Of a DNA stretch of 21,039 nt, positions 1 through 17,345 are shown in pieces. Both the position numbers and the translations under genes were made by a program. Under the pieces are notes generated by a model. It had not been told where the DNA came from. It worked only from the letters and a program-made list of their open reading frames with translations, and did not search any database. Numbering within the stretch: position 1 is the stretch's first letter; each line of letters starts with the position of its first letter. Source of the stretch: a virus; IMG/VR virus record IMGVR_UViG_3300025101_000239, positions 1 through 21,039 of that record; one strand, given 5' to 3'.

Positions 1-1093
1 TTAGCGGAATATCGTAGTATGTTGCTACTCTAAATCCTACTTCTTGACCCTTTGTTCCACGAACACCGTTTACTGTTGGAACAATTTCCTTTCTATCCAT
101 AAATCTCTCTTGGCTTTGCAATAGGTCTGCAATTGCTTGAATGGTATCATATCCGGTTAGAATAACCTTTGGTGAACCACCAGCAAGTCTTAGATTGCGA
201 ACCATGTTATTTAGCAAAGTTAGAGTTAGTGACCTAACTCCTGTTGCCGCATAAGTTGTACCTTCATCAACTTCGGCATCAAGGAATGAAGCACTATCAC
301 GGTTTGTACCGTAAATGTGGCTTACATTTGTTGCAGTAGCACCATCTGTCATTAGAGAAGATTGTGCATCCATTAGGTCTAATTCAGACTTTGAAGTAAT
401 AACCTTCAACAGAGAAGTATAGTTGTTACCAATGTTAGGCAATAGTGTTGCTTCACCATAAAACTCTAGTGGCATAACAAGCATCTTGTTCTGTACTTCT
501 GCATGGTGCTTACCCATATCTTCACGCATTTGCGCTCTAATATCGCCAATTCCATCGTCAATCTGTGCCATTTCCATAGCCAACTCACTGAAATCAAATT
601 GATGAGCAACTACTTTAGGACTCATGTTCAATTGAGCATAAGTTGGTGCAATTGGCCCCAATCCATCTTGTGCAGTTGAAAGACCAGCATTTTCAGGAAC
701 ACCACCAATAGAATCTGCTCTTGGTGTGTCTGAACCCAATTCTCCCAATGTTAGGGAAACATCTGCTTTATCAACTGTAAAGAGATTACCAGAGCCACCC
801 GCAGGTCTGCTCTTTAATACTCTCCAACCGCTTGAAGTGTATGGCCTCTTTGAAATCATTGAAAGTGCATTTACTTCACGGTTTAGCATAGACCAAACCT
901 TTTGTCCATAAACGACATTGTATAGTGCTGATACATCAGAAACGGCTGAACCGCTAAATGACGGAGAACCGTCATGTCCTGTGTGTATTCCACCAACCAT
1001 ACCGGCTTGCTTTAGCAAAGCATTACCAGCAGGTAGATTCATTCCGTATGTTTGTGCTTCTAAATCTGCAATTGTGTTAATATATCCTACCAT
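1..1093 (-). CDS. Major capsid protein, HK97 fold (3' end outside the window)
   Basis: The frame starts with ATG at 1093 and stays open to the left edge, so about 364 residues are visible and the C-terminus is missing. It is read as the major capsid protein that forms the icosahedral shell. The call rests on position, directly after a prohead protease-scaffold and in the same operon as portal and terminase, and on composition: an Ala/Gly/Ser/Thr-rich protein of balanced charge without long coiled coils, unlike its lysine-rich neighbours. The N-terminus is MVGYINTIADLEAQTYGMN. A segment VWSMLNREVNALSMISKRPY near residue 65-85 resembles the N-arm/E-loop start of HK97-type capsid proteins. The start follows a strong Shine-Dalgarno site (AAGGTGAT) and lies 10 bases after the protease stop. 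No terminal W-motif tag is seen at its N-terminus. Not verified by structure comparison. Confidence 0.82.
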   Translation of the reverse strand, partial: MVGYINTIADLEAQTYGMNLPAGNALLKQAGMVGGIHTGHDGSPSFSGSAVSDVSALYNVVYGQKVWSMLNREVNALSMISKRPYTSSGWRVLKSRPAGGSGNLFTVDKADVSLTLGELGSDTPRADSIGGVPENAGLSTAQDGLGPIAPTYAQLNMSPKVVAHQFDFSELAMEMAQIDDGIGDIRAQMREDMGKHHAEVQNKMLVMPLEFYGEATLLPNIGNNYTSLLKVITSKSELDLMDAQSSLMTDGATATNVSHIYGTNRDSASFLDAEVDEGTTYAATGVRSLTLTLLNNMVRNLRLAGGSPKVILTGYDTIQAIADLLQSQERFMDRKEIVPTVNGVRGTKGQEVGFRVATYYDIPL

Positions 1094-1097
1094 CTTA

Positions 1098-1105
1098 ATC
1101 ACCTT
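1098..1105 (-). promoter_or_regulatory. Shine-Dalgarno site of the capsid protein gene
   Basis: The minus strand reads AAGGTGAT, four bases before the capsid ATG. It overlaps the stop codon of the protease-scaffold gene. It matches the GGAGGTGAT complement of the 16S rRNA 3' end and is among the best sites in the window, as expected for a highly made protein. Confidence 0.75.
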
Positions 1106-1811
1106 AAATATTGTTCACCATTTTGTGAATATCAGACCAATCCATTGATGCAATATCATCAATACTTGGCATCTTAATTACTGACTCTTCTTGTGCCTTT
1201 AGGATAGTTTCCTTTTCAGCAGTAAGAGATTTTCTCAATTCGCTAAACTCTTCCTTCATGGAAGCAATTTCAGCCTGTGCGTCATAGTTAGCCTTTGCTA
1301 GAACATTCTCACGGTTTGCCACTTCTGACTCAAAACGAGTTTCAAAGGACTTTCGTAGGTTATCGTATGCAAGTGCTTCAAGTTGTTCTTGACGGAATGC
1401 TTCGTAAGCCTTCTCAATGTTTGCATTTGATAGGTTTAGTGTATCAAATTCATTGTTTCCAAATGCCTTTACTACCGGCATATCGGAAGAAGTTGGCTTT
1501 CCGTTGTTAATAACGATTCTATCTGCTGGTTCACCAATTTGGTTTCCAGCACCATCAAGAGTACGAAGGTATGCCTTATCAGAAGTCATTTCCCTATCAT
1601 AGTCACCTGCTTCTTTATCTTTATCACCTTCATCATCATCGGCTCTTTCCATCATTTCATCTGCTTGTTCCATCATGTCATCTGCTTGTTCCATATCAGA
1701 ACCCTCATCGGCGTATTCAGCCGATTCAACTTCCTCGCCCTCTCTTAACATCTCAACTTCTTTCAAAAGAACATCAAGTTCGTCAAGTGCTTTTTCAAGT
1801 TTATCACTCAT
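1104..1811 (-). CDS. Nested scaffold protein from an internal start
   Basis: An in-frame ATG at 1811 (residue 178 of the protease-scaffold protein) is preceded by GGAGATGA on the minus strand with five bases between. That is a better ribosome site than the one before the full-length start. The predicted 235-residue product starts MSDKLEKALDELDVLLKEVE exactly where the protease domain ends. It contains the acidic heptapeptide repeat, the coiled coil, and the C-terminal DWSDIHKMV motif. The arrangement matches lambda C/Nu3, in which the scaffold is made from an internal start in the protease gene so that scaffold outnumbers protease. The internal start is seen in the sequence; its use is an inference. 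Confidence 0.6.
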   Translation of the reverse strand: MSDKLEKALDELDVLLKEVEMLREGEEVESAEYADEGSDMEQADDMMEQADEMMERADDDEGDKDKEAGDYDREMTSDKAYLRTLDGAGNQIGEPADRIVINNGKPTSSDMPVVKAFGNNEFDTLNLSNANIEKAYEAFRQEQLEALAYDNLRKSFETRFESEVANRENVLAKANYDAQAEIASMKEEFSELRKSLTAEKETILKAQEESVIKMPSIDDIASMDWSDIHKMVNNI

Positions 1812-4932: not shown

Positions 4933-5169
4933 TCACCTATGTTCAGTAGTTTCTCCACCAAGACCATATCCTTCTTTCTTTTGTGTTTGGTTTTTTGGTT
5001 TTACATTAACTGCTTTAGGTCTTTTTATCTTTACAGGTTCGGGGTCTGTTTCTATAACCCTAACTTGAGTAGGTTCTACATTTCTAGCGTTCAATTCTTG
5101 CTTTACCTTTCTTGCTTTTTCGATAGCAAGGCTAACAAGCCTTTCCTCTTTAGTTACTCTTTCTGGCAT
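4933..5169 (-). CDS. Small basic protein, unknown function (78 aa)
   Basis: I do not recognise this protein. It starts with an amphipathic, probably helical stretch (residues 5-30, ERLVSLAIEKARKVKQEL) and continues into a Pro/Lys-rich, probably disordered tail (VKIKRPKAVNVKPKNQ). It has no terminal W-motif. The start ATG overlaps the previous stop by one base (TAATG) and follows AGGTGG, so translation is probably coupled. The ligase gene begins six bases after its end. A minor head protein or assembly factor is possible from position only. Confidence 0.75.
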   Translation of the reverse strand: MPERVTKEERLVSLAIEKARKVKQELNARNVEPTQVRVIETDPEPVKIKRPKAVNVKPKNQTQKKEGYGLGGETTEHR

Positions 5170-5408
5170 TATTGTCCACCTATCTTTTCAACCATCTTAT
5201 GAATATCAGACCATTCCATATTAGAAACATCTCCGATTCCTGTTGATGCACCTATTGTATTATTCATTTTTGGACTTGGACTTGTTGCTACAACAAGACC
5301 GGACTTCATCAATAGATTATCATTATTATAAACAGTTTGTTCCAACTGCTCTATTTTTTCTGTTAGGGCTTTTAGTATAGCCAATACATCTTCATTTACT
5401 TCTGTCAT
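5169..5408 (-). CDS. 79-residue coiled-coil protein ending in the scaffold's C-terminal motif
   Basis: Residues 1-35 form a predicted short coiled coil (ILKALTEKIEQLEQTVYNND); the middle is Ser/Gly/Pro-rich and flexible. The end is MEWSDIHKMVEKIGGQ. This matches the end of the protease-scaffold (MDWSDIHKMVNNI) in nine of the ten residues from MDW to KMV. The rest of the protein is not similar to the scaffold, so the shared tail is a discrete module. The start at 5408 (MTEVNEDV) lies one base after the stop of the gene before it and follows GGGAAGGA. The longer frame to 5456 would overlap that gene by 47 bases and is disfavoured. It could be a second, minor scaffold or a factor that competes for the same site on the capsid protein; that role is an inference. 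Confidence 0.82.
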   Translation of the reverse strand: MTEVNEDVLAILKALTEKIEQLEQTVYNNDNLLMKSGLVVATSPSPKMNNTIGASTGIGDVSNMEWSDIHKMVEKIGGQ

Positions 5409-5409
5409 T

Positions 5410-5634
5410 TTAATCCTTCCCAAACTTCTTTTGAATCTTTTTCTTTTCACGAACATACTGATTAACAGTCATTTTACCTTTGGAATATTCTAATGATAGA
5501 TTATTCATAGCCGCTTCATAAGTACCGCCCTGTATGGTTCTACCGCCTTTTTTCTTAGATGGCTTTCTCGGTGGTGGCTTTTTTCCGCCACCACTGCTTA
5601 TTCCTCTTGATTTGATTATGTTCCACCAAGTCAT
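5410..5634 (-). CDS. Tagged small basic protein with SHOCT-like end (74 aa)
   Basis: The protein begins MTWWNIIKSRG, one of the N-terminal W-motif tags of this window. A Gly/Pro/Lys-rich linker follows (residues 12-37). A C-terminal part (about 38-70, NNLSLEYSKGKMTVNQYVRE) has the pattern of SHOCT-type short helical-hairpin domains (a helix, then kG-(I/M)-T-x-x-(E/Q)-Y). The SHOCT resemblance is by eye. The start codon overlaps the upstream stop as ATGA and follows GGGTGATT. By the tag it is inferred to be packaged in, or bound to, the procapsid. Confidence 0.82.
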   Translation of the reverse strand: MTWWNIIKSRGISSGGGKKPPPRKPSKKKGGRTIQGGTYEAAMNNLSLEYSKGKMTVNQYVREKKKIQKKFGKD

Positions 5635-5993
5635 TTTGAATCACCCTTTTTCTTTGGATATACCATTTCCCGAAGTTGTCGATACAAGGTTTCGTAGTCC
5701 TTACGAAGTTTGGTAGCGGTGGCTATAATATCAAGGTTGCGCTCATCCATACTCTTCATACGCTTATTTAGTTTTTTATCTGATTTAGTAAGGTCTAAGT
5801 CTTTGAGGACATCAATCAAGTCACCCATCTTTGTAAAGTCTTGGCCGAAAAACTCCGTTGGTTCAGCCGCCTGTAATGTCTTTTTGAGTTTTTTTGTCTG
5901 CTTTTTATCTAAACTATTTAGAATAGTTTTTGGTTCTTCTTTTTTGGCTTTTAGAATAAACTCTTCGCCATTATCATAAAAATCCCATGTCAT
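5631..5993 (-). CDS. Unknown helical lysine-rich protein, possibly tagged (120 aa)
   Basis: I do not recognise a family. It starts MTWDFYDNGEEFILKAKK. The first three residues match the tag, but the I-L-K part comes only after an insertion, so it is a doubtful member of the tagged set. The rest is rich in Lys, Asp and Leu and probably all helical, with a long helix near residues 75-112 (ATKLRKDYETLYRQLREMV). The gene follows GGAGGAAGA and overlaps the stop of the 1186-residue protein gene (ATGA). Confidence 0.8.
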   Translation of the reverse strand: MTWDFYDNGEEFILKAKKEEPKTILNSLDKKQTKKLKKTLQAAEPTEFFGQDFTKMGDLIDVLKDLDLTKSDKKLNKRMKSMDERNLDIIATATKLRKDYETLYRQLREMVYPKKKGDSK

Positions 5994-8900
5994 TCATCTT
6001 CCTCCTTTGCAGGTACTTTGATTCCTCTTTTAGTTCTTTTTCCTTCACCGCTTTCCATAGCCTCTATTAGACGCTTATTTTCGGCTATTTCTTTAGTTAT
6101 ATCTTCACGGACTTTAATTATTTTGTCCATTAATATTTGTTCTTCTTTGCTTCGGGAATCAGTATATTCTTTTCTTTCTTCATTTATTCTATCAGCAAAA
6201 TCTTTCATTATGCCAATAACTTTTTCGATAGCCTTTCCTTTAGGACTATCAATATCTTCCATTTGTGATAATGACTCTATCTTTTCGTTCATCCTTCGTT
6301 CATAATCCGACAATGTTTTTGATTTAGCATCTAATTTTGCGTCAGTATTTTCCCAAAAGTTCTTCAAAGCATTAAGTAATCTTTTTAACTGTGCATTTTT
6401 CTTTGCATAAAGAGAACCTGCGTAAGTCATTTCCCCTGCTCTTGTATCAATATCTTTTTCTTTAGGTTCTACTTTAGCCGTACTATTTATTTTTTCATAA
6501 ACATCAAATATTATTTCTTGCAATTTTTCGGCACCCAAAAAGATTCTATTATCAATTTCAACTAAAGACTTATATTCTCTAGTGATTGCATTGTAGTCTG
6601 ATGCGTATTTACCTTTAAGCGGTAGGAATATTTTCATTAAGTCATTTCTAAACACTTTAGTATCTTCTTTAACTCTTGATTTGAAAAACTTTGGTATTCT
6701 GAATTGCTCGGATTTTTTCATCTTAACATTCTTAATTGCTTCTTCAACAAGTTTTCCAAACTGTTCTCTTACCGCATCCTTCGTGTCAGAATCTACTCTA
6801 CCGGCTTTGTATTTGAAAGTGTTTCTTGATATTCTATTAATTACTTCAAGTATTGTCATTTCCTGTCCTTCAAAGGTAACTTCTTTCTCTAAGTTTTTGA
6901 GAATACTGTCTGCGGCCTTTTCTATTTCATTGTAGCCTTTATCTCCTTTTTTGTAGGAAAATCCTCTAACAACTACTTCGGCCTTGCTATTTACATCAAC
7001 GAAGGCGAAGAATCTATTCTTATCTTCTTTACCCTTTTCTTTTGTAAAGAAGGTATGTAGTCTTTTGTTACTTGTATCGAAATCATCAGAATCTTTAGCG
7101 GCCTTAATGTCATTTGCTAATTTAACTGCATCTTCTAATTTTAATTTGCCCCACTTTATAGAATCTATCACTTTCTCATCAGACTCTTTTTCGGATTTTA
7201 ACATAGATTCTTTTTCTGGGAATCGTGGGTCTTTTGGTTCATACCTCTTATCCGGCTCATACTTCTTAGGTATCTTCTTCTCCTGTTTCCCTTCTCTTTT
7301 CTGTCTTGCAATTTTTTGCTCAAGAGTTTCTTTTTTGTATCGAGTAGGTGCTTCTTTCTTAGCCCTTGTCAAATCCTGATAAAGTTTGTTGCTTTGTATA
7401 GAAGTAAGTATATCACTTCTAATTTTATTATTTCTCTTAGTTCCCATTAAGTTAAGAATATCTATTACATGCAGATTATTTTTACCAATGAAAGATTGTA
7501 TTGCTTTTACAAAGTCATCTTCATTTTGATAGTTTGACGACGCTTTAGAAAACGCATCCATGTTTGAAGATAAGTCATTCCAAAACTTTCTTGTTTGGGC
7601 ACCAACATCACTTGTTAGTAGTGCTTCTTGCTTTTTTGCACTATCAACCCTTGCTCTTTCAAAGAAGTAGCCATATAGCATTTTTTCTTCTGCGGCTAAT
7701 TGCTCTTTAACAACCTGCTTTATACCGGCTTTGCTTTTACCTTCAAAGTCAGCAGTTTTTTGTGCGCCATATCTAAGAGGTGACTTTTTACGCTTTTCCC
7801 TTTCCTCTTTAGTCATTTTGAATCTGCTTTGTAACTTAGCCATTAGTTTTTTGATTTTTGTAATCTTTTTATCTTCAGTAGGTGTCTTTGCCTCTAAATC
7901 ATCTAATACCCTCATTAGCCTAGTGTAGTATTCCTTAAACTTAGGCATGTTATCAAGAATAAAATTATTCTTTTGTTTAGCGGTCATTTTTTTGTAGGCA
8001 CCTATCTTTTCTCCCTCTATTACTATTTTCTTATCTAATACACTAAGATACTGCTTAAATCCTTCTTCATTAAGTAATTCTTTAATAGTTTTCAAAGAAG
8101 TTTTTCCTTCTATTTCACCAAATATTTCAGAGAAAGCAACACTTTCTTTTGCCTGTGGTCTTTCTTCTTTACCTGTGGCTATTAATTTATCTTTTTCTTT
8201 TTGACTAAATATATTTTCTATTCTTACTTTTACTAATTCAGTAGTTTCATCAAAGGACTCCAATGCACTCTTTTTATCTGAGGCAATTATTTTTAATTTT
8301 GAATCTCTTATTTTTCTATTTAGTTCATCTTTGGAAAGGTTTTGTACTTCTTTAATAGTGTCCTTTACTGCTGACTTACCATAATCTTCAAGAGATTCAA
8401 ATATATCCCTAAACTCTTCTTTATCCGTTTCAACGGATGCCATTCTAAGAAGGCTATTGAGTTTGTCTTTAGCGACTTCTTCTTTAGAAGATAATCCTTG
8501 TTTTTTTCTCTTGAGAGATTTTAATTCATTTTTGAATCCTTTTTCATTTTGAATAGTTTCTAATTTCATACTTTTTTGTGATTCTAACTTCAAAGAATTT
8601 AATTCTTTTTTATCTTTTTCTATTTCATCTGCTTTAATTTCTTTTAATTCTTTATCTAATCTATTCGATTCTTTAGTTAATATGGCTTTCTTTTTTTCTG
8701 CTTCCTTTTTATTTTTAGGCAGAGCATAATATCCAGCCTCTTTTCCTTTAGCCTTCATTGATTCTTCCAATGATTTAAGTTCTTCTTTATTTCGTTTTAT
8801 TTCTAATTTAATAGATTTTAGTCTATTTTCTCTTCTTTGAATATCGTCTTGTAGTTTTCTTCTTTGTTCTAAAGAAACATTTCTTGTTCTCATAGGTAAT

Positions 8901-9550
8901 TCTAATACTTCAGCGACTTCGCTCAATCTTACCTTTTTACCACCTAATACAGACTCCATAAACTTTATTTGTTTATCTAATTTTTTACCTTCTTCTTTAG
9001 CATTATCACGCGCATTTTTATACTCGACTTCTCTTTCTTTTATTTTTTGTTCATAATCAACTTCTTTAGGTTCAATTAAACCTAAAGAGGACTCTATCTG
9101 CCCTTCAATAAAATCCCGTACTGCTTGCCGCCCATAATTAGCAAGTATTTCTTTATCTTTATCACTTACATCAATATTAGTTTCATATTTCTTTGTGTCC
9201 ATTACATTTTTAATGCTTTCATAAATCTCTTTATCGAATTGAGTAAAGCCCTCTTTTGAAACAAATAACTCTTTTATATATTCAGAAGCATCCTTACTAT
9301 CATTTTCCTTTATGGCCTTTTCTGATAATTCAAATGCTCTTTCTATTTTTTCTCTTTGCTCGACCCTACCTTTAGAAAAGTCTTTGAGTCTTTCTTTAAG
9401 ACTACGCTCATCCTCTTGTTTTTTATTCGGGCCAGATACTCCTTTGAAATCACCAATAGCCTTCGCTATTTCTCTATCTTCTACTAATTCCTTTAGTAGA
9501 AAATAGACATCGTTTTCACGACCTGCTATAATGGACTTCCAAGATGACAT
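5990..9550 (-). CDS. Very large charged coiled-coil protein with N-terminal tag (1186 aa)
   Basis: This is the largest gene in the window, and the function is not recognised. The protein starts MSSWKSIIAGREND, a variant of the W-motif tag with one extra Ser. It is extremely rich in Lys and Glu. Strong coiled coil is predicted by eye from about residue 165 to 400, and more helical segments run to the end; the last residues are acidic (PAKEEDE). I see no signal peptide, membrane segment or enzyme motif. It lies between portal and scaffold genes, where tail tape-measure proteins are not usually found, and its tag suggests an internal head protein or core/scaffold component. A tape measure remains an alternative, given the length and coiled coil. 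The start follows AGGTGATATA; codon use looks like that of its neighbours. Confidence 0.88.
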   Translation of the reverse strand: MSSWKSIIAGRENDVYFLLKELVEDREIAKAIGDFKGVSGPNKKQEDERSLKERLKDFSKGRVEQREKIERAFELSEKAIKENDSKDASEYIKELFVSKEGFTQFDKEIYESIKNVMDTKKYETNIDVSDKDKEILANYGRQAVRDFIEGQIESSLGLIEPKEVDYEQKIKEREVEYKNARDNAKEEGKKLDKQIKFMESVLGGKKVRLSEVAEVLELPMRTRNVSLEQRRKLQDDIQRRENRLKSIKLEIKRNKEELKSLEESMKAKGKEAGYYALPKNKKEAEKKKAILTKESNRLDKELKEIKADEIEKDKKELNSLKLESQKSMKLETIQNEKGFKNELKSLKRKKQGLSSKEEVAKDKLNSLLRMASVETDKEEFRDIFESLEDYGKSAVKDTIKEVQNLSKDELNRKIRDSKLKIIASDKKSALESFDETTELVKVRIENIFSQKEKDKLIATGKEERPQAKESVAFSEIFGEIEGKTSLKTIKELLNEEGFKQYLSVLDKKIVIEGEKIGAYKKMTAKQKNNFILDNMPKFKEYYTRLMRVLDDLEAKTPTEDKKITKIKKLMAKLQSRFKMTKEEREKRKKSPLRYGAQKTADFEGKSKAGIKQVVKEQLAAEEKMLYGYFFERARVDSAKKQEALLTSDVGAQTRKFWNDLSSNMDAFSKASSNYQNEDDFVKAIQSFIGKNNLHVIDILNLMGTKRNNKIRSDILTSIQSNKLYQDLTRAKKEAPTRYKKETLEQKIARQKREGKQEKKIPKKYEPDKRYEPKDPRFPEKESMLKSEKESDEKVIDSIKWGKLKLEDAVKLANDIKAAKDSDDFDTSNKRLHTFFTKEKGKEDKNRFFAFVDVNSKAEVVVRGFSYKKGDKGYNEIEKAADSILKNLEKEVTFEGQEMTILEVINRISRNTFKYKAGRVDSDTKDAVREQFGKLVEEAIKNVKMKKSEQFRIPKFFKSRVKEDTKVFRNDLMKIFLPLKGKYASDYNAITREYKSLVEIDNRIFLGAEKLQEIIFDVYEKINSTAKVEPKEKDIDTRAGEMTYAGSLYAKKNAQLKRLLNALKNFWENTDAKLDAKSKTLSDYERRMNEKIESLSQMEDIDSPKGKAIEKVIGIMKDFADRINEERKEYTDSRSKEEQILMDKIIKVREDITKEIAENKRLIEAMESGEGKRTKRGIKVPAKEEDE

Positions 9551-9560
9551 TATATCACCT

Positions 9561-9788
9561 TCAGAACGGAATGTTTTCCCTCTTTCCTCTTTTCTTAGAA
9601 GGTAGCAAAACTACATCGGGAACATCATTAGACGCATTAATTGATTTATGCGTAGTGTCCGGTGGTAGTCCACCAATAGAGTAATCTCTACTAACTGTTG
9701 CTTTTCGGTTATCAGCCGCATTTTGACTTCTAACCTTTGCTAGTTCTTTTTTCAATCTCATTTCTTTTTGTTTCAAATCTTCTGTCAT
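9561..9788 (-). CDS. Small coiled-coil protein downstream of the portal (75 aa)
   Basis: Not recognised. Residues 1-22 (MTEDLKQKEMRLKKELAKVR) form a short charged helix; the rest is polar and probably disordered, ending in a basic stretch (PSKKRGKREN). I choose the ATG at 9788, one base after the portal stop. A TTG three codons upstream (9797), directly behind a GGAGAG site, is possible and would add MVD. There is no W-motif. Position between portal and a large internal protein suggests a minor head component. Confidence 0.72.
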   Translation of the reverse strand: MTEDLKQKEMRLKKELAKVRSQNAADNRKATVSRDYSIGGLPPDTTHKSINASNDVPDVVLLPSKKRGKRENIPF

Positions 9789-9789
9789 A

Positions 9790-11427
9790 TCAACCAACTC
9801 TCCTTTCAGTTCTTGAATCTACATTTTGATTACCTGCTTCTGCTGGTAATCCTGTCATACGCTTATCCGGCCCTACTTCGTTTCGGGCTTTATTCCTTGT
9901 GGCTGGTGGGTTTTCCTGTGGTTTTCCTCCACCTTGAGCAAATTGTCTTGCTTGTTCATCTAAATCCCTTTGGTCTAAATTAGAACCTGCTAATGGGTCA
10001 TTCTCTACTTGGCCTTCTTCTGCTGGCTGTTCTTCTTCAACCGGTTCCGGTTTTTCAAAGGTAAAGTTACCATCTTCATCCATTTCTACTTCAAAGCCTA
10101 AGTTTTTGATTGAAGCCGCAATATTGACTTCTATCTCTCTTTTTCTCAACTCAGCGATTTCATCTTCTTCTTCGGATGGCGGTAATTTAAGAACCCAATC
10201 TGTGATTCCAAATTGTTTAACTAAGTAAGGGAATACATAATTATTATACACATTCTGAGCCATTTGCACTGCACGATTAGTAACTAAGATTTGCATACCT
10301 TCATTATTCAAACCGCCACTTGTAGTATTATCGGCCATGAATACTTTACTCACACCATAGAATGCTGAAATCCTATCTCTCAAATCATCCTTTACGGAAA
10401 TGTAATCCATTTCCTTTAGACTATCCATAAACTTAATCCACTCTACGGCACCTTTACCGCCTTCTGCTTCAATACCCATAACAGGAATAAAGTGTGGGTC
10501 TGATTCCATCTTCTCTTTTACACCACGCCAAAATGCTCTCATTGAGTCCATGTTGCGTGTTTGTACTGCCAGCAATCCTCTTGGCATTCTACTCTTAGTA
10601 TATGCTGAATTGACATAATTCTCCATAGCAATAAGAGTCATAATGTGATTGTATAGTGTGATAACAGGAGAGAAACCATAGAGTCTACTTGGACTATACT
10701 TACTGAAATGTAATACTTCTCCCTCTAAGAAGTATTGGTCGTCACCATTTGCTCTATTGACATAATGAACGGGATAAGTATTTCCTCCACAGTGTTCACA
10801 AGTATGATGCGGTTCTGTATGTAGAACATCTCTATGATTAATACAAGTAAATCCTTTGGTTCCTTTTACACCATCTTCATCTGCATAGATGAACATAGTT
10901 ACAGGGTCGCCTCTGAATATTTCTTTGATACGGTGCATTCTTATTTGTCCGTTACCATCAATAAAGTATTCCTTAACAAGAACAATATACGCATCATCCA
11001 TAGTATTCAAATCATCTTCTAATTCCTTTAGCACATCAATGAATAACTGTTCTGATGGATTAACATACCCTTCCAAAAACTTCTCAGCATATTCTAATTG
11101 CTTTACATCGGGCAGTTTCAAATTTTCTGAACCACATCTTGAACATGCGGCAACAGGTCTTTGGTGTTTTTTTCCACAACTATTACAAATAGACTCAAAG
11201 GCCTTTTCCCAAGTATATCCTCTTCGATATACTTCTTGTTTTAATTGAGTAATACAGGTTCTAACAATAACTGATTGTTGAACCATAGAATAAATGATAG
11301 GTGCTGTCATCATGTAGTTATTCTGTCTTTCTTGAATACCCATGTTGAATATCTGCCTATCAGCAGGTTTAGGAGTAGAACGCCTAAACAAATTAGTAAA
11401 AGAAAATCTGCGCTTTTTTTCAGCCAT
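9790..11427 (-). CDS. Portal protein with two zinc-ribbon-like insertions
   Basis: This 545-residue protein forms the dodecameric ring at one capsid vertex through which terminase drives DNA. The portal signature is visible as GEVLHFSKYSPSRLYGFSPV (236-255), followed by helical stem and clip regions and a typical late segment DRISAFYGVSKVFMA. The C-terminal 80 residues are polar, Gln/Pro/Gly-rich and likely disordered. Unusually, two cysteine clusters are present. One is Cys81-Cys84 and Cys95-Cys98 (CNSCGKK...CSRCGSE), a standard zinc-ribbon spacing. The other is Cys195, His198, His203, His207/208, Cys210 and Cys213. They lie in the N-terminal half, probably in the wing. The gene starts 11 bases after the 44-residue zinc-finger gene. 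Confidence 0.93.
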   Translation of the reverse strand: MAEKKRRFSFTNLFRRSTPKPADRQIFNMGIQERQNNYMMTAPIIYSMVQQSVIVRTCITQLKQEVYRRGYTWEKAFESICNSCGKKHQRPVAACSRCGSENLKLPDVKQLEYAEKFLEGYVNPSEQLFIDVLKELEDDLNTMDDAYIVLVKEYFIDGNGQIRMHRIKEIFRGDPVTMFIYADEDGVKGTKGFTCINHRDVLHTEPHHTCEHCGGNTYPVHYVNRANGDDQYFLEGEVLHFSKYSPSRLYGFSPVITLYNHIMTLIAMENYVNSAYTKSRMPRGLLAVQTRNMDSMRAFWRGVKEKMESDPHFIPVMGIEAEGGKGAVEWIKFMDSLKEMDYISVKDDLRDRISAFYGVSKVFMADNTTSGGLNNEGMQILVTNRAVQMAQNVYNNYVFPYLVKQFGITDWVLKLPPSEEEDEIAELRKREIEVNIAASIKNLGFEVEMDEDGNFTFEKPEPVEEEQPAEEGQVENDPLAGSNLDQRDLDEQARQFAQGGGKPQENPPATRNKARNEVGPDKRMTGLPAEAGNQNVDSRTERRVG

Positions 11428-11438
11428 ATATGAACCCC

Positions 11439-11573
11439 CTACTGCTTCTTACGATTGCCTTCTCTTATGAATGCTTTCATAGGCTTCGGGCAACCGTATT
11501 TTACCCAACATTTCTCACAGAAACCAAAGGGTCGAGGGTTGGGTGTAGTATAGCATATTCCACAATAATTCAT
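11439..11573 (-). CDS. 44-residue zinc-finger protein
   Basis: This short gene runs from ATG at 11573 to TAG at 11439. The protein has two CxxC pairs (Cys4-Cys7 and Cys19-Cys22) and a fifth cysteine at 28: MNYCGICYTT ... GFCEKCW ... GCPK. This is a compact treble-clef or zinc-ribbon pattern, followed by a basic tail (REGNRKKQ). The start overlaps the upstream stop as ATGA and follows a very strong site, GGAGGGGATGAG. It ends 11 bases before the portal gene. The role is unknown. A zinc-binding partner for the portal's own zinc ribbons or a DNA-binding packaging factor is conceivable. Coding potential is supported by the ribosome site, tight packing and cysteine pattern. Confidence 0.8.
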   Translation of the reverse strand: MNYCGICYTTPNPRPFGFCEKCWVKYGCPKPMKAFIREGNRKKQ

Positions 11574-12040
11574 CTCATCCCCTCCATTTTTTCTAAGAAC
11601 CTTTTAATTTCTCGACCTTCTCTAATTAGAGAGTTACTTGACATAAGCAATTGACTAATTAATTTAGAGTCTTTTAACCATTTATCATACATCTTTTCTA
11701 TTTTATCTGATGTAACATCTTTGTAATCTGCTTTATCTTCAAAAGATTGTAGTATCTTCTTAACATCGTCTGTTCTGATATGTTGTAAATTAAGAGTACC
11801 ATAAGAATGTGTTTGCCAATATCCTTTTCTAAACAATCTCGCCAATTGTGCATATACATATTCTTTATTCATTCCTTCCGGCACTTTAATTCCTATGTTG
11901 TATTTTCCTTGAACCTCACTAAATTTTCTCATGGGTTTTCCAACATTCTGTTCAGAGCCTCTTTTTTGTAGCCAAAAATCCGCTTCGGGGTAATTTGTTT
12001 TAACAACAAAATCAGCCTTTAGCAAATCAATCCACGACAC
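11570..12040 (-). CDS. Tagged protein of unknown function (156 aa)
   Basis: It starts MSWIDLLKADF, a clear N-terminal tag. GTG is the start codon, and the Trp at position 3 falls exactly as in the other tagged proteins. The body has a compact domain (residues 20-100) with ADFWLQKRGSEQNVGKP and YVYAQLARLFRKGYW, followed by GTLNLQHIRTDDVKKIL, then a helical tail ending KRFLEKMEGMR. I have an impression of relatives in other marine viruses but no named family. The upstream site is GGAAGTTGAT. The next gene's ATG overlaps its stop. Confidence 0.82.
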   Translation of the reverse strand: MSWIDLLKADFVVKTNYPEADFWLQKRGSEQNVGKPMRKFSEVQGKYNIGIKVPEGMNKEYVYAQLARLFRKGYWQTHSYGTLNLQHIRTDDVKKILQSFEDKADYKDVTSDKIEKMYDKWLKDSKLISQLLMSSNSLIREGREIKRFLEKMEGMR

Positions 12041-12044
12041 AATA

Positions 12045-12398
12045 TCAACTTCCTTTGCGCCATTTCTTGTTCTTTTTTTCTTTGGTTTTACTTGGACTCC
12101 ACTTTACTTTATCAGCCCAATAAGCGGCAGACATTTTACCACGCTTGATATTTTTCTTATGCCTACTTTTGAATGCTTTTCTTTGTCCAGCAGTTTGATT
12201 TGTTTTAACTCCCTTTTGTCCAAACTTGATATACTTGGCCTTTTTACCTTCAAAAGCCATAACATGATGAGATTTGTCTGAATCATCACTTAATCTCTGA
12301 GGCTTGTTTAGGCCTTTAAGTCCTTTCTTTTTGGCTCTTTCTAAGGCTCTTGACTTTGCACTCTTGGGTTTCTTTTTCAGAATATCTTCCCAAGTCAC
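12045..12398 (-). CDS. Tagged, highly basic marine-virus protein (117 aa)
   Basis: The start is MTWEDILKKK with a GTG start codon, a near-ideal tag. The following 25 residues are Lys/Arg-rich. A conserved-looking core follows: KYIKFGQKGVKTNQTAG (about residues 55-71), then FKSRHKKNIKRGKMSAAYWA and DKVKW (77-101). I recall very similar cores (FGQKGV...RH.KNI..GK.SAAYWA..VKW) in small proteins of marine tailed phages and some giant viruses, usually without a known role. The charge fits nucleic-acid binding. The tag would place this DNA-binding protein inside the capsid. The site before it is GGGGAG; GTG overlaps the upstream TGA. Confidence 0.85.
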   Translation of the reverse strand: MTWEDILKKKPKSAKSRALERAKKKGLKGLNKPQRLSDDSDKSHHVMAFEGKKAKYIKFGQKGVKTNQTAGQRKAFKSRHKKNIKRGKMSAAYWADKVKWSPSKTKEKKNKKWRKGS

Positions 12399-12796
12399 TT
12401 TTCTCCCCTCATCTGATTTTCTTTAGAAGTTTTATCATCATCAATTGGGCCACCCTTAGCCCAAGTGTAACAAGACCTTGCTGAATGGCATTTGAAGTGG
12501 TGCATCCAACAATAGCCCAAACGCCCATCTTCATCAGTAGTTAAAGGCATACATTCATCCATTCTTGGAGATATGTCAAATGCAATACAATTACTGCAAT
12601 TAGATTCCTTTGCTACATCAGCAGTAGTATTCCACCTTTTAGCATATTCTTCCCAATACTTTTCATCTTCAAGATTAAGTGGCCCATATCTAATATTTGG
12701 ATTTTTTACTGCGGCATCTCTATTTTTAGTGTTGAGCATCAAATCCTGTGTTGCTCTAGGACAAACCAATTGTTTCAAAATTATTTCCCAACTCAT
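12395..12796 (-). CDS. Tagged cysteine-rich protein, HiPIP-like family of marine phages (133 aa)
   Basis: The N-terminus is MSWEIILKQL, the tag. The body has Cys67-x2-Cys70, Cys82, Cys96, Cys103 and Cys109, with His99, His100 and His104 nearby, in NCSNCIAFD, MDECMP and GYCWMHHFKCHSARSC. IRYGPLNLEDEKYWEE (35-50) precedes them. This pattern is familiar to me from proteins in marine phages annotated as high-potential iron-sulfur-like; I cannot confirm an iron-sulfur cluster rather than zinc. It could be a structural metal-binding virion protein. ATG overlaps the previous stop. Confidence 0.82.
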   Translation of the reverse strand: MSWEIILKQLVCPRATQDLMLNTKNRDAAVKNPNIRYGPLNLEDEKYWEEYAKRWNTTADVAKESNCSNCIAFDISPRMDECMPLTTDEDGRLGYCWMHHFKCHSARSCYTWAKGGPIDDDKTSKENQMRGEK

Positions 12797-13188
12797 GCAG
12801 TAAATCCTCTCCCCTTACTTGGTTTTTTAATAGAAATAATATCTCCATCTCCGTGAATGTATGCTTTTCCATCCTCGACTAAAGCCATTACTTCGCCTTT
12901 TATTTGAGAAGGGTTAAGTTGTTTGAATTTTTTATTTAGGTGACTATAACCCAAAGCACCGCCTTCTTTCTGTATTTCTCTTAGAATAAGTCCTCTGATT
13001 CCTCCGGCTTTAGCCTTCTTGACTTTATTTCCTTTCTTGTCATATACGCCTCTACCGATTAAAACATCTTTTTGAGTTACTTTACCATCACCGGATAAGT
13101 CCGGTATTTTTTCAATGATAGGTTCTTCATCTGTTTTTTCTGAACTGCAATGGGCTTTTTCTGTCTTTAGAATATCTTTCCAACTCAT
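12793..13188 (-). CDS. Tagged EF-hand / winged-helix-like protein (131 aa)
   Basis: It starts MSWKDILKTEK, the tag. Residues 30-41 (DLSGDGKVTQKD) fit a calcium-binding EF-hand loop with ligands at positions 1, 3, 5, 9 and 12 and Gly at 6; a single loop of this type is dockerin-like. Residues 62-120 (GGIRGLILREIQKEGGALGY ... VEDGKAYIHGDGDIISIKK) have the helix-helix-hairpin pattern of a winged-helix domain. The end is basic. Function is unknown; a calcium-stabilised internal virion protein is possible. The stop overlaps the next ATG. Confidence 0.82.
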   Translation of the reverse strand: MSWKDILKTEKAHCSSEKTDEEPIIEKIPDLSGDGKVTQKDVLIGRGVYDKKGNKVKKAKAGGIRGLILREIQKEGGALGYSHLNKKFKQLNPSQIKGEVMALVEDGKAYIHGDGDIISIKKPSKGRGFTA

Positions 13189-13523
13189 GCTTTCATCCTC
13201 TTTGTTTTTCTTTTACTTGATTCTTTTCTTGCTAAAGCAACTTTGTGTGCAGCGTTTAATCTCTTTTTTGTTTCTGGATTTTTTGCTCTTTTAGCCGCTA
13301 CTCTTGCTCTTTGCTCAACTAAATTGATTATTTGTGATTGTCTTTTATGTGGCTTAGATTTGAATGCTGAACTACTGAATGTTTCTCTCACATCACCTGC
13401 GGTCTTAAACTTAACGGAAACAGTGTCTTTTGGGTTTTCATCAGTGTATAATCTTCTATCAGAACCTTTTGGCTTTTTACCCGTACCTTTCTTCGGGTCT
13501 TTTTTTAGAATATTTTGCCACAT
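13185..13523 (-). CDS. Tagged basic protein (112 aa)
   Basis: I place the start at the ATG giving MWQNILKKDPKK, because this puts the tag (here without Ser/Thr) at the N-terminus and gives a one-base TAATG overlap with the upstream stop. The longer frame starts at a GTG (13541, MGEKEL) and overlaps more. The protein is strongly basic throughout; a helical part (about 65-112) contains VEQRARVAAKRAKNPETKKR and a KRKTKRMKA end. VSVKFKTAGDVRETF (35-50) may be a small folded part. Nucleic-acid binding is likely from charge only. Confidence 0.8.
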   Translation of the reverse strand: MWQNILKKDPKKGTGKKPKGSDRRLYTDENPKDTVSVKFKTAGDVRETFSSSAFKSKPHKRQSQIINLVEQRARVAAKRAKNPETKKRLNAAHKVALARKESSKRKTKRMKA

Positions 13524-13798
13524 TAACTCTTTTTCCCCCACGATTTACCTTTACCTTTTTGCCCGCAAGCAGAAGGTGTAGGTCTACAAGAAGGATATTT
13601 AGAACGCTTTTCCCTACTACCACGACCACAGGCACTACATTTTTTTCTACCTGTTTTTTTATCTTTACGGCAAGTATTACAATCAACCCAACCGCCTTTA
13701 CTTCCTTTAGCACCTTTACGGCCAAACCAATCTCTAAGGCTTGTTTCAGAAGAAGGCTTCGCAGTTAATTTGCGTTTCAATACTTCTTGCCATGTCAT
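13523..13798 (-). CDS. Tagged basic, cysteine-containing marine-virus protein (91 aa)
   Basis: The start at 13798 gives MTWQEVLKRKL, with AGTGATT three bases upstream; the GTG at 13807 (MIN) is disfavoured. SLRDWFGRKG (20-29) is followed by Cys40-x2-Cys43 and Cys54-x2-Cys57 (WVDCNTCRKD, KKCSACGRGS), a zinc-ribbon spacing. Then comes KYPSCRPTPSAC (67-78) and a Lys/Gly-rich tail. Small proteins with the SLRDWF...CG..S..K..YP.CRPTPSAC pattern are known to me from marine phages and large DNA viruses, without a firm function. Here it has the local tag added in front. Confidence 0.83.
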   Translation of the reverse strand: MTWQEVLKRKLTAKPSSETSLRDWFGRKGAKGSKGGWVDCNTCRKDKKTGRKKCSACGRGSREKRSKYPSCRPTPSACGQKGKGKSWGKKS

Positions 13799-13803
13799 AT
13801 TAA

Positions 13804-14016
13804 TCACTTCTTAGATTTATTGCCCCAATTAGCGGCACCAACTTTACGACATCTAACTAAAGCACCCGAAGCATAAGCCGAAGGCCAAACATCATATCTG
13901 CTTCTAACCTTTGAATAACAAGCATCTTTTCGCTTTGCTTTCTTTTTCTTATAACGCTTAGAACCCTTTTTTCTTCGGGCTTTTCCTTTCTTGTGAATAA
14001 TATCTTCCCATGTCAT
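13804..14016 (-). CDS. Tagged, very basic marine-virus protein (70 aa)
   Basis: MTWEDIIHKKGK is the tag, close to both the N-terminal form (WEDI) and the C-terminal form (DIHK). A run of about 20 mostly Lys/Arg residues follows, then DACYSKVRSRYDVWPSAYAS and GALVRCRKVGAANWGNKSKK. The second half is a compact pattern I recognise from many marine phages (CY.KV..RY.VWPSAYASGALV.CRKVG), of unknown role. Two cysteines (33 and 56) may bind metal or pair. Its ATG overlaps the upstream stop. Confidence 0.87.
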   Translation of the reverse strand: MTWEDIIHKKGKARRKKGSKRYKKKKAKRKDACYSKVRSRYDVWPSAYASGALVRCRKVGAANWGNKSKK

Positions 14017-15374
14017 ACTATCATGCCCCCAATACCTTCTAATTCATCCATAACGGACATCTTACAGTTACCTTGTAACTTAGCAATATCATCAACATAT
14101 ATACCTTCTTTTAGGAAATCAAACCCAACATGGTCTTTGTGATTTTCCCACTTCATTAATTTGAATATCTCTTCACATCTACCTTTGTACCAATCAGCCT
14201 TCTTGTATGACTTCTTCATACGGATTAATTCTAACAACAATTCAGCATTACCTTTTTTCATTCTAAAATGAGGCAAACATTTTGTCAATAGATTATGCAC
14301 ATCATCTTGTGAATAGAAATTAAGACGATTTACCGGCCTTGTATCTTGTGGAGATTTTTGGTCTAAATGTAACTTACCAAACCCAATAGACTTGTGCATT
14401 TCATTCATGAATACCTTCCCTCTTTCTCCTGTTGCTACTAAACCTACTCTTGGATTATGGTTTCTATCCATAGTAATGTAACCATCTGAATCAATAAATG
14501 CCGCAGTATAAGCCCAAACATTTTTCTTTAATTCGTTGGGTAATTTATAATAACCGCCATTAGAACTTCCTATTTCCAACTTATTAATCATTTTAGAAAT
14601 AGTGCTGGTTGAGTTTATTTTGTGTAAATTAGTTGGCATTGAATCATGTATCTGACCTAATCCAATTCCCGGATTTTCGCATACTGCCTTCATAATAAAG
14701 TCTAATGACTTTTCTTTCTTTGATTTAATTAGAGATTGGTCGGTAATACTTTTTATTTCTTGCCTAAACTCTTTCTTAGCAATTCTTGAATCTTTTTCTA
14801 ATTTAGCATATTCTTTACTATATGCCATATTTTCTTTCTTCAAATCAATTTCCCATAATTTACAAAGAGAATCAACAACAACTCTTCTTTTCTTAACATC
14901 TGTAATCTTATTGAGTTTTGATAAATCCTTTTCTGTAAATCTCATTTTAAGTAATGGAACTTTGTATGGGCTAATCCAATAAATAGAATTAATACACTTG
15001 TGAATGTGTTCACCATATCCTTCAATAACAGTATCAATTGATTTAGACATTCTTGTTCTTGATTCTCCCTTTAGACTTCTTCTTGCTTTACGCATTTTTT
15101 TTACCAAGTCGGGAATAGTCTGTCCATCAACTATGTATTCTGAAGGGAATGTATCAAGACGCTTTCTCGCATCAGTAGCATTAATGTTTAGATTCTTAGA
15201 TAGAGTAGTAATGGCTTCATAGTCGGACATGACATAATCATTAATACTTTTTAATCTAGTACCTAAAGCCTGTTCAGCCTTAGTCTGTTCTTCTTTTTGT
15301 TTCCTTCCTAACTCTGCTAATTGACCCATTGCTTCTTCGGCATCTTCATATTCTTCAGGAGTAGGAGTAGTCAT
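14013..15374 (-). CDS. LAGLIDADG-type endonuclease-like protein with wHTH and long N-terminal domain (453 aa)
   Basis: Residues 286-300 (VWAYTAAFIDSDGYI) match a single LAGLIDADG helix with its acidic residue. The next 90 residues fit the fold of such nucleases: PRVGLVATGERGKVFMNEMH, GFGKLHLDQK, NRLNFYSQDDVHNLLTKCLP, LLLELIRMKKS. A winged-helix region precedes it (about 224-278, SLDFIMKAV...STISKMINKLE). The first 220 residues are helical and unrecognised. A single-motif protein would act as a dimer. It may be a homing nuclease inserted next to terL, or a domesticated one serving packaging; the N-terminal part could even hold a small-terminase role (speculative). The start follows AGGTGATTAA nine bases after terL. 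No intron or intein is visible in terL. Confidence 0.8.
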   Translation of the reverse strand: MTTPTPEEYEDAEEAMGQLAELGRKQKEEQTKAEQALGTRLKSINDYVMSDYEAITTLSKNLNINATDARKRLDTFPSEYIVDGQTIPDLVKKMRKARRSLKGESRTRMSKSIDTVIEGYGEHIHKCINSIYWISPYKVPLLKMRFTEKDLSKLNKITDVKKRRVVVDSLCKLWEIDLKKENMAYSKEYAKLEKDSRIAKKEFRQEIKSITDQSLIKSKKEKSLDFIMKAVCENPGIGLGQIHDSMPTNLHKINSTSTISKMINKLEIGSSNGGYYKLPNELKKNVWAYTAAFIDSDGYITMDRNHNPRVGLVATGERGKVFMNEMHKSIGFGKLHLDQKSPQDTRPVNRLNFYSQDDVHNLLTKCLPHFRMKKGNAELLLELIRMKKSYKKADWYKGRCEEIFKLMKWENHKDHVGFDFLKEGIYVDDIAKLQGNCKMSVMDELEGIGGMIV

Positions 15375-15383
15375 TTAATCACC

Positions 15384-16814
15384 TCAGAAGTTCATACCAA
15401 TAAAACCGTTCTGCCTTGCATACTTGTTAGTTTGCACCGGCTCAAATATTCCCATATCGTCTAAGAGTATGAATGTTTCACTCATAGTATGTGTTGCCGC
15501 ATTTGCTAATGCAAGGCTCATCACCATATCGTCATGTGCGCCAATACCCTCAAACTTGCCTCTTTCAGTAATAGCAAACATTGACAATTCTTCTATCAGT
15601 GTACCTGTAACTCTTCGGCTTTCTTCATTACCATAAGGCAAACGAATCTTTTCGTTTTCAAAGTTCATTTGCAAACTAAGAATAATCTCTTCCTTCTTCT
15701 TTCTCGTTGTATTAAAATCATGCACATTCAAATCAGACACATTCCTTAACTCCTGTGTAAATGATTTAGCAAAGGTGTTTGTTTCAAAGAGGACTACTTC
15801 GGGATGGAACATTTTTCCTATTAGCCGAACCTTTTCTATATTCTCTCTAAACTCAACATTCTTACAACGGTCTACAAATACTACTGTCTTATTGTCATGT
15901 TCGTCTACTTCTAATACAGTAATTACATTATAATCTCCATCAGTAGAAATAGCAGGGTCTACTCCAACATAATACTTGAAGCCCTCACGCCTTTGTGGTT
16001 TCAAAACATAATCTTTATTCTTAGCCTTGTCTAAGTATTCAGGATTGAATAGAGAAGTACCCGTCGATATCGGAACACACATATATTCCCTTGTGAACAT
16101 TAGTGAACCAACTTCAGCCTTTCTCGCCATTAGTGCTTCATAATTCCATCTGTCCGGCCATAAGGGTTCATTCAAAGAATTAAGGCATGGATATGTTCTA
16201 ACAGTATATGCGTCATTTTCCGATAACTGTTGGTAAATATCTGTATAACTGAATGGAGTACCAATAACCCTAAGTGATGCAGTGTGATGTAAAGTAGGAA
16301 TCATATCTCCATAAAACCAATCTGTAACCTTTTGAATCCCTGTCATACTAAACTCTTTCAAAGGGTCATCAATTACTATTTCTTGAGGGTGTAATCCACG
16401 AATCTGTGAACCAACTGAACGCTCTAAGATTTGATTACCGTTAGTTAATGTAATGTTACCAATAGCCCAACCCCTTGCAGGTTTGAACCTTTTAAGCATA
16501 GGATGGGTGAACATCTTATCAATATCTCTCATGTGAACCAATGTCTGCTTTTGGTTAGAAGATATGTATAGCATTTGATATGGAGGCTTTTCAAAAATTA
16601 ACTTCCACACTACCCAACTGTGCATAAATACGGATTTACCGTGGTCACGACTACAAATGATTACTGTTCTTTGAGTTTCATTCATCAACTCATGCCACTC
16701 TTGAATATAAGACGGAAAATCGAAACCTAATACATTCTGAAAGAAGTATGGAAAGGAGTTACGGGATAACTCCATATCCATCTGATGTTCAAAATTGAAG
16801 GTTTCTATTTCCAT
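15384..16814 (-). CDS. terL: Terminase large subunit
   Basis: This is the DNA-packaging motor ATPase and nuclease, 476 residues. Walker A is CSRDHGKSV (54-62, Lys60). Walker B is IVIDD (146-150), with Asp-Asp in place of Asp-Glu, followed by PLKE. A coupling motif IGTPF is at 184-188. The RNase H-like nuclease part has Asp286 in YVGVDPAIS, Glu344 in LFETN and Asp428/429 in GAHDDMVMS, in the order expected. It should pump DNA into the procapsid through the portal and cut the concatemer. No intein or frameshift is visible. The start is preceded by GGTGATAAT, and it lies four bases after the acetyltransferase gene. No small terminase is recognised nearby. Confidence 0.96.
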   Translation of the reverse strand: MEIETFNFEHQMDMELSRNSFPYFFQNVLGFDFPSYIQEWHELMNETQRTVIICSRDHGKSVFMHSWVVWKLIFEKPPYQMLYISSNQKQTLVHMRDIDKMFTHPMLKRFKPARGWAIGNITLTNGNQILERSVGSQIRGLHPQEIVIDDPLKEFSMTGIQKVTDWFYGDMIPTLHHTASLRVIGTPFSYTDIYQQLSENDAYTVRTYPCLNSLNEPLWPDRWNYEALMARKAEVGSLMFTREYMCVPISTGTSLFNPEYLDKAKNKDYVLKPQRREGFKYYVGVDPAISTDGDYNVITVLEVDEHDNKTVVFVDRCKNVEFRENIEKVRLIGKMFHPEVVLFETNTFAKSFTQELRNVSDLNVHDFNTTRKKKEEIILSLQMNFENEKIRLPYGNEESRRVTGTLIEELSMFAITERGKFEGIGAHDDMVMSLALANAATHTMSETFILLDDMGIFEPVQTNKYARQNGFIGMNF

Positions 16815-16818
16815 ATTA

Positions 16819-17334
16819 TCACCGTTTCTTTAACAACATAAACCAAGTCATTTCGTGTTTGACCCATTTTTGTAGTTGTTCGGGATAATTGACTCCTTCA
16901 AGTTCTTCTTGTATATCTTTAGGTAGACTCTCTATTACCATATCTTTGAATCCATATTTTTTTAATGTGTTAGCAAATCTTTCCGAAACTGGATTAGCAT
17001 ACAATGTTTTAGTTCCTTTTTCTTCTAATAACTTTTCTAATAAAATACTAGATAAGCCTCTTCCCCTATATTCATCTCTAACATGAGTTCCTGCCATTAA
17101 AAGTGCGCCTTTGTGTTCAGCAAAACCAATAACCCCTACAGGTTTATTCTCATAAAAAGCAACAAACATGGTAGCGGGGGCAGTAGCCCATATAGAATCT
17201 CTAGGTAAGAATTTACCATATCTCATTTGTCTTTTTACATAATTAAAATAGCCGTCATCTTGAAAGGCTTTAATGGCCTTTTTTTCAGACATCTCTTCAA
17301 AAGAAAGTTCTTCGGGGGGAATTTTTTCTGCCAT
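16819..17334 (-). CDS. GNAT-family N-acetyltransferase with C-terminal tag
   Basis: This 171-residue protein has the acetyl-CoA-binding motif A (HVRDEYRGRGLSSILLEKLL, residues 84-103, with the R-G-x-G turn). The preceding strands are MFVAFYENKPVGVIGFAEH. ANPVSERFANTLKKYGF (113-129) is the typical motif B and KYGF end. The acceptor substrate is unknown. The protein ends MTWFMLLKKR, matching the tag found at the N-terminus of other proteins here. I use the ATG at 17334 (MAEKIP), which follows AGGTGAG; the GTG at 17343 lies inside that site. Being tagged, it may be carried in the virion and act early on a host or virion protein; this is inference. Confidence 0.9.
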   Translation of the reverse strand: MAEKIPPEELSFEEMSEKKAIKAFQDDGYFNYVKRQMRYGKFLPRDSIWATAPATMFVAFYENKPVGVIGFAEHKGALLMAGTHVRDEYRGRGLSSILLEKLLEEKGTKTLYANPVSERFANTLKKYGFKDMVIESLPKDIQEELEGVNYPEQLQKWVKHEMTWFMLLKKR

Positions 17335-17338
17335 ATTT

Positions 17339-17345
17339 CTCACCT
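17339..17345 (-). promoter_or_regulatory. Shine-Dalgarno site that fixes the acetyltransferase start
   Basis: The minus strand reads AGGTGAG four bases before the ATG at 17334. It contains the GTG at 17343 that would be the alternative start, so the ATG is preferred. Confidence 0.65.

Follow-up and report, generated by a model that had tools for sequence, protein, structure and literature searches.

So far, capsid targeting peptides have been known from T4-like phages and from P1, and the few proteins that they bring in serve anti-restriction or host takeover. In encapsulins, a short terminal peptide loads diverse cargo into an HK97-fold shell. Here we analyze a 21-kb linear virus fragment, IMGVR_UViG_3300025101_000239 (the window, meaning the whole stretch of 21,039 nucleotides), in which every gene lies on the minus strand and a seven-residue peptide with the consensus [S/N/T]-W-x-[D/N/E]-I-[L/I]-K (the tag) recurs on proteins of the head gene module. 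We propose, with considerable confidence, that the tag is a predicted portable capsid-interior targeting signal of magroviruses that acts much as the T4 capsid targeting sequence (CTS) does and probably docks where the scaffold docks.

The T4 CTS, carried by IPI-III and Alt, proved to be the close parallel that an earlier, sequence-only reading of this DNA had named. Both systems use a short N-terminal peptide on otherwise unrelated small proteins, have a protease of the gp21 fold, and vary their cargo between relatives. T4 IPII and IPIII start MKTYQEFIAEA and IPI starts MKTFKEFT; residues 4 and 7 determine targeting (PMC9026906), and this spacing of an aromatic residue and a hydrophobic one at i+3 (Y4/F7) recurs as W3/I6 in the magrovirus tag. 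However, the magrovirus tag has Trp rather than Tyr or Phe, marks about 6-25 proteins rather than about four, belongs to an archaeal virus, also occurs at C-termini and internally, is shared with the scaffold C-terminus, and shows no visible cleavage motif. Given that no cleavage motif follows it, and that the likeness is one of function and spacing, we do not class the tag as a T4 CTS. The DarB packaging signal of P1 offers a second likeness, being an N-terminal signal sufficient to carry a reporter into the head and serving anti-restriction cargo (PMC9024508), but the P1 Dar proteins have no shared consensus, a signal of more than 9 and at most 30 residues, and no scaffold counterpart. Herpesvirus UL26/UL26.5 share with our system a protease fused to a coiled-coil scaffold with a C-terminal tail, which in herpesviruses binds the major capsid protein (MCP), together with a shorter protein that has the scaffold end (PMC12474303); there the tail is on the scaffold only and an overlapping gene encodes the short form, whereas the magrovirus has a separate gene for it. 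The encapsulin parallel, also drawn by the sequence-only reading, is functional only. Unlike an encapsulin shell system, which has no portal or terminase, the window has a portal, a terminase and a prohead protease; the magrovirus packages DNA, its tag is mostly N-terminal and scaffold-tail-like, and shell binding is here a prediction.

The best matches of the window portal and protease are the haloarchaeal tailed viruses HVTV-1 and HCTV (Druskaviridae, about 30% identity), which are the closest cultured relatives by these two proteins and have the same head gene order. The portal is common to 80 IMG/VR relatives at 79-99% identity, which reach up to about 96 kb except for one 185-kb record. 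Based on the HVTV-1/HCTV-like portal and protease, these relatives, a ligase-like open reading frame (ORF) and the descriptions of the order Magrovirales by the International Committee on Taxonomy of Viruses (ICTV; PMC12999244), we identify the window as part of a magrovirus genome. Magroviruses are tailed viruses whose hosts, according to their ICTV profiles, are Poseidoniales archaea. The HVTV-1 head genes that we examined carry no tag, and the protease C-terminus of that virus does not match. HVTV-1 genes 113, 115 and 116 (L101:19230-28018), in the same place after the portal gene, share a repeated segment of their own (EAPE...GG...YY), possibly the halovirus equivalent of a shared module of head proteins.

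Conservation of the tag peptide

All nine N-terminal copies that had been noticed in the window, on the proteins starting at 5634, 9550, 12040, 12398, 12796, 13188, 13523, 13798 and 14016, are present on the minus strand (Table 1), and the bodies behind them are unrelated by blastp. A tenth protein, at 5993, does begin MTW and then diverge; most of its 77 homologues keep MTW-D-[FY]-Y...[IF][IL]K, a stretched form W...ILK of the tag, and the homologue in record G019 bears the plain tag MWELILKEEK. The count of nine or ten tagged proteins is confirmed, and the tag proved much more widespread; the count missed C-terminal copies on the prohead protease-scaffold, a small coiled-coil protein and a GNAT acetyltransferase. 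From composition, the motif is expected at about 1.1e-4 per start, giving a probability of about 3e-27 for at least 8 of 20 genes, and it follows an internal Met in only 10 of 18,003 cases; together these figures exclude a chance origin of the window tags. Alternative in-frame GTG starts lie 6 codons upstream for 13523 and 3 codons upstream for 13798.

To define the consensus we took one representative from each of 148 body families. The residue before the Trp (W-1) is S, N or T, W+1 is K, E, F or Q, and W+2 is D, N or E, followed by Ile at W+3 (83%), Leu (73%) or Ile (20%) at W+4 and Lys at W+5 (99%). Information falls to background from W+6 onward, directly behind the Lys, with at most 0.42 bits beyond W+5. 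Since the pattern from W-1 to W+2 resembles a helix capping box, the tag likely folds as a short amphipathic helix that is capped at its N-terminus and presents Trp and Ile/Leu on the same face. W3, I5, I6 and K8 are invariant in 27 homologues of the 12796 protein, and homologues of the 13523 protein start MWQQILKK, MGWRKVLKK or MSWKNVLKT or carry an internal SWKNILKK behind another domain.

Selection acts on the peptide, because its Ile, Leu and Lys codons are mixed (all six Leu codons are used at W+4, with Ile and Lys codons near background) and upstream DNA is conserved at tagged genes only in the Shine-Dalgarno sequence. That the peptide is kept at the protein level had been read correctly from the differing codons. 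An effect on translation or on the N-terminus itself (initiation region, N-degron or N-terminal stabiliser) would agree with the position of most copies at a start codon and with the predominance of AGT among the Ser codons, which is partly an effect of the search pattern. We regard such an effect as highly improbable given the conservation by residue rather than by codon, and the reading as a translation signal is largely refuted by functional-looking copies at C-termini and between domains.

Distribution across magrovirus genomes

We compared 11 long related records. Genes were called mechanically, there is redundancy among the contigs, and the exact start is uncertain by a few codons in some genes. 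Conservation of the N-terminus in related genomes had been set beforehand as a test of the targeting idea, and the outcome is strongly in favour: 159 of 824 late-strand calls have tagged starts, compared to none of the 805 that lie on the other strand. Of the late genes, 130 of 418 upstream of the MCP gene are tagged, against 5 of 251 in the tail module downstream of it. The terminase, portal and capsid protein are untagged, as are the tail genes that we read in record G005. A DNA-pattern scan of 20 whole records gave 76 matches, confined to a single strand within each record, compared to 1 match for a reversed control pattern.

When the tag pattern alone was used to search viral contigs, at least 119 stretches were found, and about 72 of the 80 listed contain at least one called tagged gene, most of them several. 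Because these loci were selected by the tag, tag density is overstated in them; the whole-record counts are free of that bias. All fetched loci together yield 811 distinct tagged ORFs, which fall into about 424 body families; the encoded proteins have a median length of 112 amino acids (aa) and range from strongly acidic to strongly basic. Among 74 large tagged proteins, a scan with Pfam, NCBIfam and PADLOC returned a CCA-type nucleotidyltransferase, a PAP2 protein, one GNAT, weak single hits and almost nothing else. A search of 257 Gb of cellular genomes with the tag pattern returned 16 isolated hits, most of them internal and of the kind expected by chance, and no tag cluster, leaving a cellular origin of the tag unsupported.

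The highest share of tagged genes among the listed stretches, 19 of 25 called genes, is in L164, where an island at L164:2201-7966 holds many tandem tagged paralogues (MGWFNLLK, MKWQEILKNI, MWRDILKNIQ and others). Such tandem copies would fit a single family of paralogues whose bodies diverged while the N-terminus was kept. However, the tagged proteins have different folds, and some belong to families with tagless bacterial-phage homologues (phrog_7595, HiPIP-like) or to cellular enzyme families (GNAT, CCA enzyme). We give descent from one family next to no credence, and it is refuted for the identified families.

Portability of the tag

The tag behaves as a portable label that can stand at the N-terminus, at the C-terminus or between domains. 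Exactly one scoring copy was found in 372 of 393 tagged proteins and two in 2 of 393. Among single-domain homologues of the window cargo, 118 of 123 carry one tag, the five exceptions being contig-edge truncations or the variant MDWHIILK. At ten loci the bodies of the 14016 and 13798 proteins, which are separate and each tagged in the window, are fused, with the 13798 body behind the 14016 body; every fusion has one head (MWQEILK, an internal SWQEILK, or the diverged LWFEELK) and never two.

The same bodies occur without the tag in bacterial phages. In Roseobacter phage CRP-13, gp69 matches the 12398 body at 64% identity and has the untagged start MSVPDRVKATM, while gp66 is an untagged match to another tagged family; P12053L_37 is a further untagged bacterial-phage homologue of a tagged body. 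Phage homologues of the 12796 protein are annotated as high-potential iron-sulfur protein (HiPIP); such HiPIP-like homologues are untagged in MW202879 and in OQ999401, where the gene lies beside a capsid maturation protease. An AlphaFold model of the 12796 protein had a mean predicted local distance difference test score (pLDDT) of 41 and was set aside.

The tag can also stand at the other end of a protein. GNATs homologous to the window GNAT end in W..[VL]L[KR] (for example, SKWMEVLKWN or PKWMGVLKWN), and four of them that have an inserted linker of about 40 aa still end in NFPEWKKILRGD. A CCA tRNA nucleotidyltransferase with PolyA_pol head, RNA-binding and C-terminal domains (L189:6432-7679, minus strand) is tagged at both ends, starting (V/M)GWMQILK and ending KLWKSILKKQYNIK; it is a candidate delivered enzyme for tRNA repair. 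In the same stretch an HMG-CoA lyase-like protein of 276 aa that starts MTPISIYEVGPRDGLQNWEG (L189:8100-8927, minus strand) adjoins tagged genes. A 374-aa protein (G005:31265-32389 and G004:82846-83970) has two overlapping tag-like copies as its C-terminus, DTWKDIKKSWQDILRW.

The scaffold C-terminus and the proposed docking site

The prohead protease-scaffold of the window ends in a relative of the tag. Its tail reads MDWSDIHKMV, with MSWGDIHN, MSWDEINE and MTWDDVHS in divergent clades, and [DEST]W.[DETQ][IVL] is present at all 64 of the 64 distinct C-termini that we examined from close and distant relatives; M400 and W402 are invariant in 58 homologues. An AlphaFold model (mean pLDDT 60) has a protease domain, a disordered stretch, a long coiled-coil helix at 306-387 (pLDDT mostly 78-91) and a separate helix at 402-410 that begins at the tag Trp. 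The protease therefore has the herpesvirus UL26-type layout, in which a single chain combines the protease, a coiled-coil scaffold and a short conserved C-terminal helix. Structural matches of the protease domain are headed by T4 gp21, followed by herpesvirus proteases; among PDB sequences no useful relative of the protease profile or of the MCP sequence was found. A second copy ends the 95-aa coiled-coil protein, where the C-terminal end is kept in about 60 relatives. Small coiled-coil proteins of this kind align to positions 320-399 of the protease profile, which form its scaffold end (E 4e-6 to 1e-3), and by this likeness the 95-aa protein is a probable stand-alone paralogue of the scaffold part.

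The P22 scaffold has an essential C-terminal helix-turn-helix (PMC9962691). Because a tag-like helix ends both the protease-scaffold and its small paralogue, the likeliest docking site is the scaffold-docking site on the MCP, and the simplest reading of such a peptide on dozens of head-module proteins is that cargo docks where the scaffold docks. Alternatively, the tag may bind the scaffold core (the protease-scaffold or the small coiled-coil protein) by helix-helix packing, which would still place the cargo inside the head. The T4 CTS has been described as acting via core affinity (PMC9026906, PMC7411985), and like helices could let scaffold and cargo associate. Nevertheless, the tag relative lies at the very end of the scaffold proteins by which the scaffolds of herpesviruses and P22 attach to coat protein, and the sharing of one ligand helix by scaffold and cargo suggests a common third partner, so we hold core binding as a minority possibility.

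It is also conceivable that the tag is a handle for an intracellular hub, such as a host factor or a replication or transcription compartment, and that tagged proteins act in the infected cell rather than in the virion. The cellular-type enzymes among the tagged folds (GNAT and CCA tRNA nucleotidyltransferase) would suit this explanation; restriction to the head-side late module, the lack of tags on the other strand and the presence of the tag on the protease-scaffold would all be unexpected, and we consider it unlikely. Targeting to the capsid interior, first suggested by the sequence-only reading, emerges as the best-supported explanation from the head-proximal module, the single tag per chain, the tagless phage homologues and the protease-scaffold C-terminus.

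Four observations weigh against this proposal. First, the scaffold tail has His or Asn at W+4 instead of Leu or Ile and often differs at W+5, which weakens the case for a shared docking site; about five residues carry the likeness between the scaffold tail and the tag of the cargo. Second, no conserved prohead-protease cleavage site is seen behind the tag in the alignment of 148 families, unlike in T4. Third, a few tagged genes are located downstream of the MCP gene. Fourth, 9550, the largest tagged head protein, lacks the tag Lys; its homologues start MSWKAVLAG, MSWKAVLSG or MLWEAVLVG, with Ala, Ser or Val in place of Lys.

We infer the docking partner, virion packaging, ejection into the host and the roles of the cargo as follows. 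Tagged proteins would be produced late in infection. In prohead assembly, the tag helix would bind via its Trp and Ile/Leu face to the inner face of the MCP (less likely to the scaffold core), and a late protein with one tag copy, in any position, would be co-assembled and enclosed in the prohead. The protease would remove the scaffold, and DNA would then enter. About 6-25 different, mostly small proteins would be loaded per virus; the cargo would exit with the DNA at infection and is probably condensed or delivered with it, as are T4 internal proteins. In its broader form, towards which we lean only slightly, the scaffold-tail docking site is a general cargo port at which a seven-residue helix at either ORF end makes virion cargo, with a fast-changing delivered set of about 6-25 proteins that spans hundreds of families and includes the GNAT and the CCA tRNA nucleotidyltransferase.

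Poseidoniales are very abundant ocean archaea whose antiviral biology is almost uncharted. The principle seen in T4-like phages and P1 would here be a code shared across a virus order, one of uncultured surface-ocean archaeal viruses, and carried by hundreds of orphan families; the scaffold's own tail is the likely origin of the tag. For a large set of hypothetical proteins one could then predict membership of the virion and delivery, and some of those delivered may be counter-defence factors; if the proposal is true, sequence alone can list hundreds of cargo families. The tag is also a compact candidate loading tag, accessible to work with recombinant capsid protein. In a limited literature search we found no earlier account of a tag of this kind for magroviruses or other archaeal tailed viruses, nor any experiment on these viruses; a prior mention of the tag is possible.

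Features and neighbouring genes of the window

Table 1. Tag copies, tag relatives and head genes of the window (positions in the window)
Feature	Position	Strand	Gene	Remarks
N-terminal tag MTWEDIIHK	13990..14016	-	13804-14016	70-aa basic protein; relatives of same body MSWQDILR/MSWQDILQ
N-terminal tag MTWQEVLKR	13772..13798	-	13523-13798	91-aa Cys-rich basic protein; homologues MSWKEVLKGG etc.
N-terminal tag MWQNILKK	13500..13523	-	13185-13523	112-aa basic protein
N-terminal tag MSWKDILKT	13162..13188	-	12793-13188	131-aa protein with EF-hand-like loop
N-terminal tag MSWEIILKQ	12770..12796	-	12395-12796	133-aa Cys-rich protein
N-terminal tag MTWEDILKK (GTG start)	12372..12398	-	12045-12398	117-aa basic protein; body is phrog_7595
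N-terminal tag MSWIDLLKA (GTG start)	12014..12040	-	11570-12040	156-aa protein; weak DUF6943 similarity; homologues MWEDILKA, MWRDLLKA
N-terminal tag variant MSSWKSIIAG	9521..9550	-	5990-9550	1186-aa coiled-coil protein after portal gene
Stretched tag variant MTWDFYDNGEEFILKAK	5943..5993	-	5631-5993	120-aa protein; start MTWDFYDNGEEFILK
N-terminal tag MTWWNIIKS	5608..5634	-	5410-5634	74-aa SHOCT-like protein; homologues MTWWNIIKA, MSWKTILKA
C-terminal tag MTWFMLLKKR	16822..16851	-	16819-17343	GNAT acetyltransferase (Pfam); position-specific scoring matrix score 15.3
C-terminal tag relative MEWSDIHKMVEKIGGQ	5172..5219	-	5169-5456	95-aa coiled-coil protein
C-terminal tag relative MDWSDIHKMVNNI	1107..1145	-	ORF 1104-2522	Prohead protease-scaffold; probable start 2342; Peptidase_S78 (Pfam)
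Portal protein	9790..11427	-		Untagged; PF04860, phrog_18178; 30% identity to HVTV-1 portal
Terminase large subunit	15384..16814	-		Untagged
Putative MCP gene	2..1102	-		Cut by contig end; proposed docking partner of tag

In the direction of transcription, the window encodes two uncharacterised proteins, the GNAT acetyltransferase, the terminase large subunit, one uncharacterised protein and seven small tagged proteins, followed by a 44-aa protein, the portal, a small protein, the 1186-aa coiled-coil protein, four small proteins, the ligase-like protein, the prohead protease and the start of the MCP. The last assignment is a putative one, made from the position after the protease gene and a gene order as in HVTV-1. 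Among the relatives, the 184.7-kb record G016 is about twice the usual length and has repeated tagged genes (MWFSILKNYVSI at 67849 and 159679); it probably represents two genomes joined in assembly. The ligase-like protein (845 aa, window 2389-4926, minus strand) is untagged, lies between head genes, and was recognised from its sequence as resembling ATP-dependent DNA ligases. Lastly, the 453-aa protein that precedes the tagged genes (window 14013-15374, minus strand) has no Pfam match at 0.1 and contains a LAGLIDADG-like stretch (AAFIDSDGYITMDRN).

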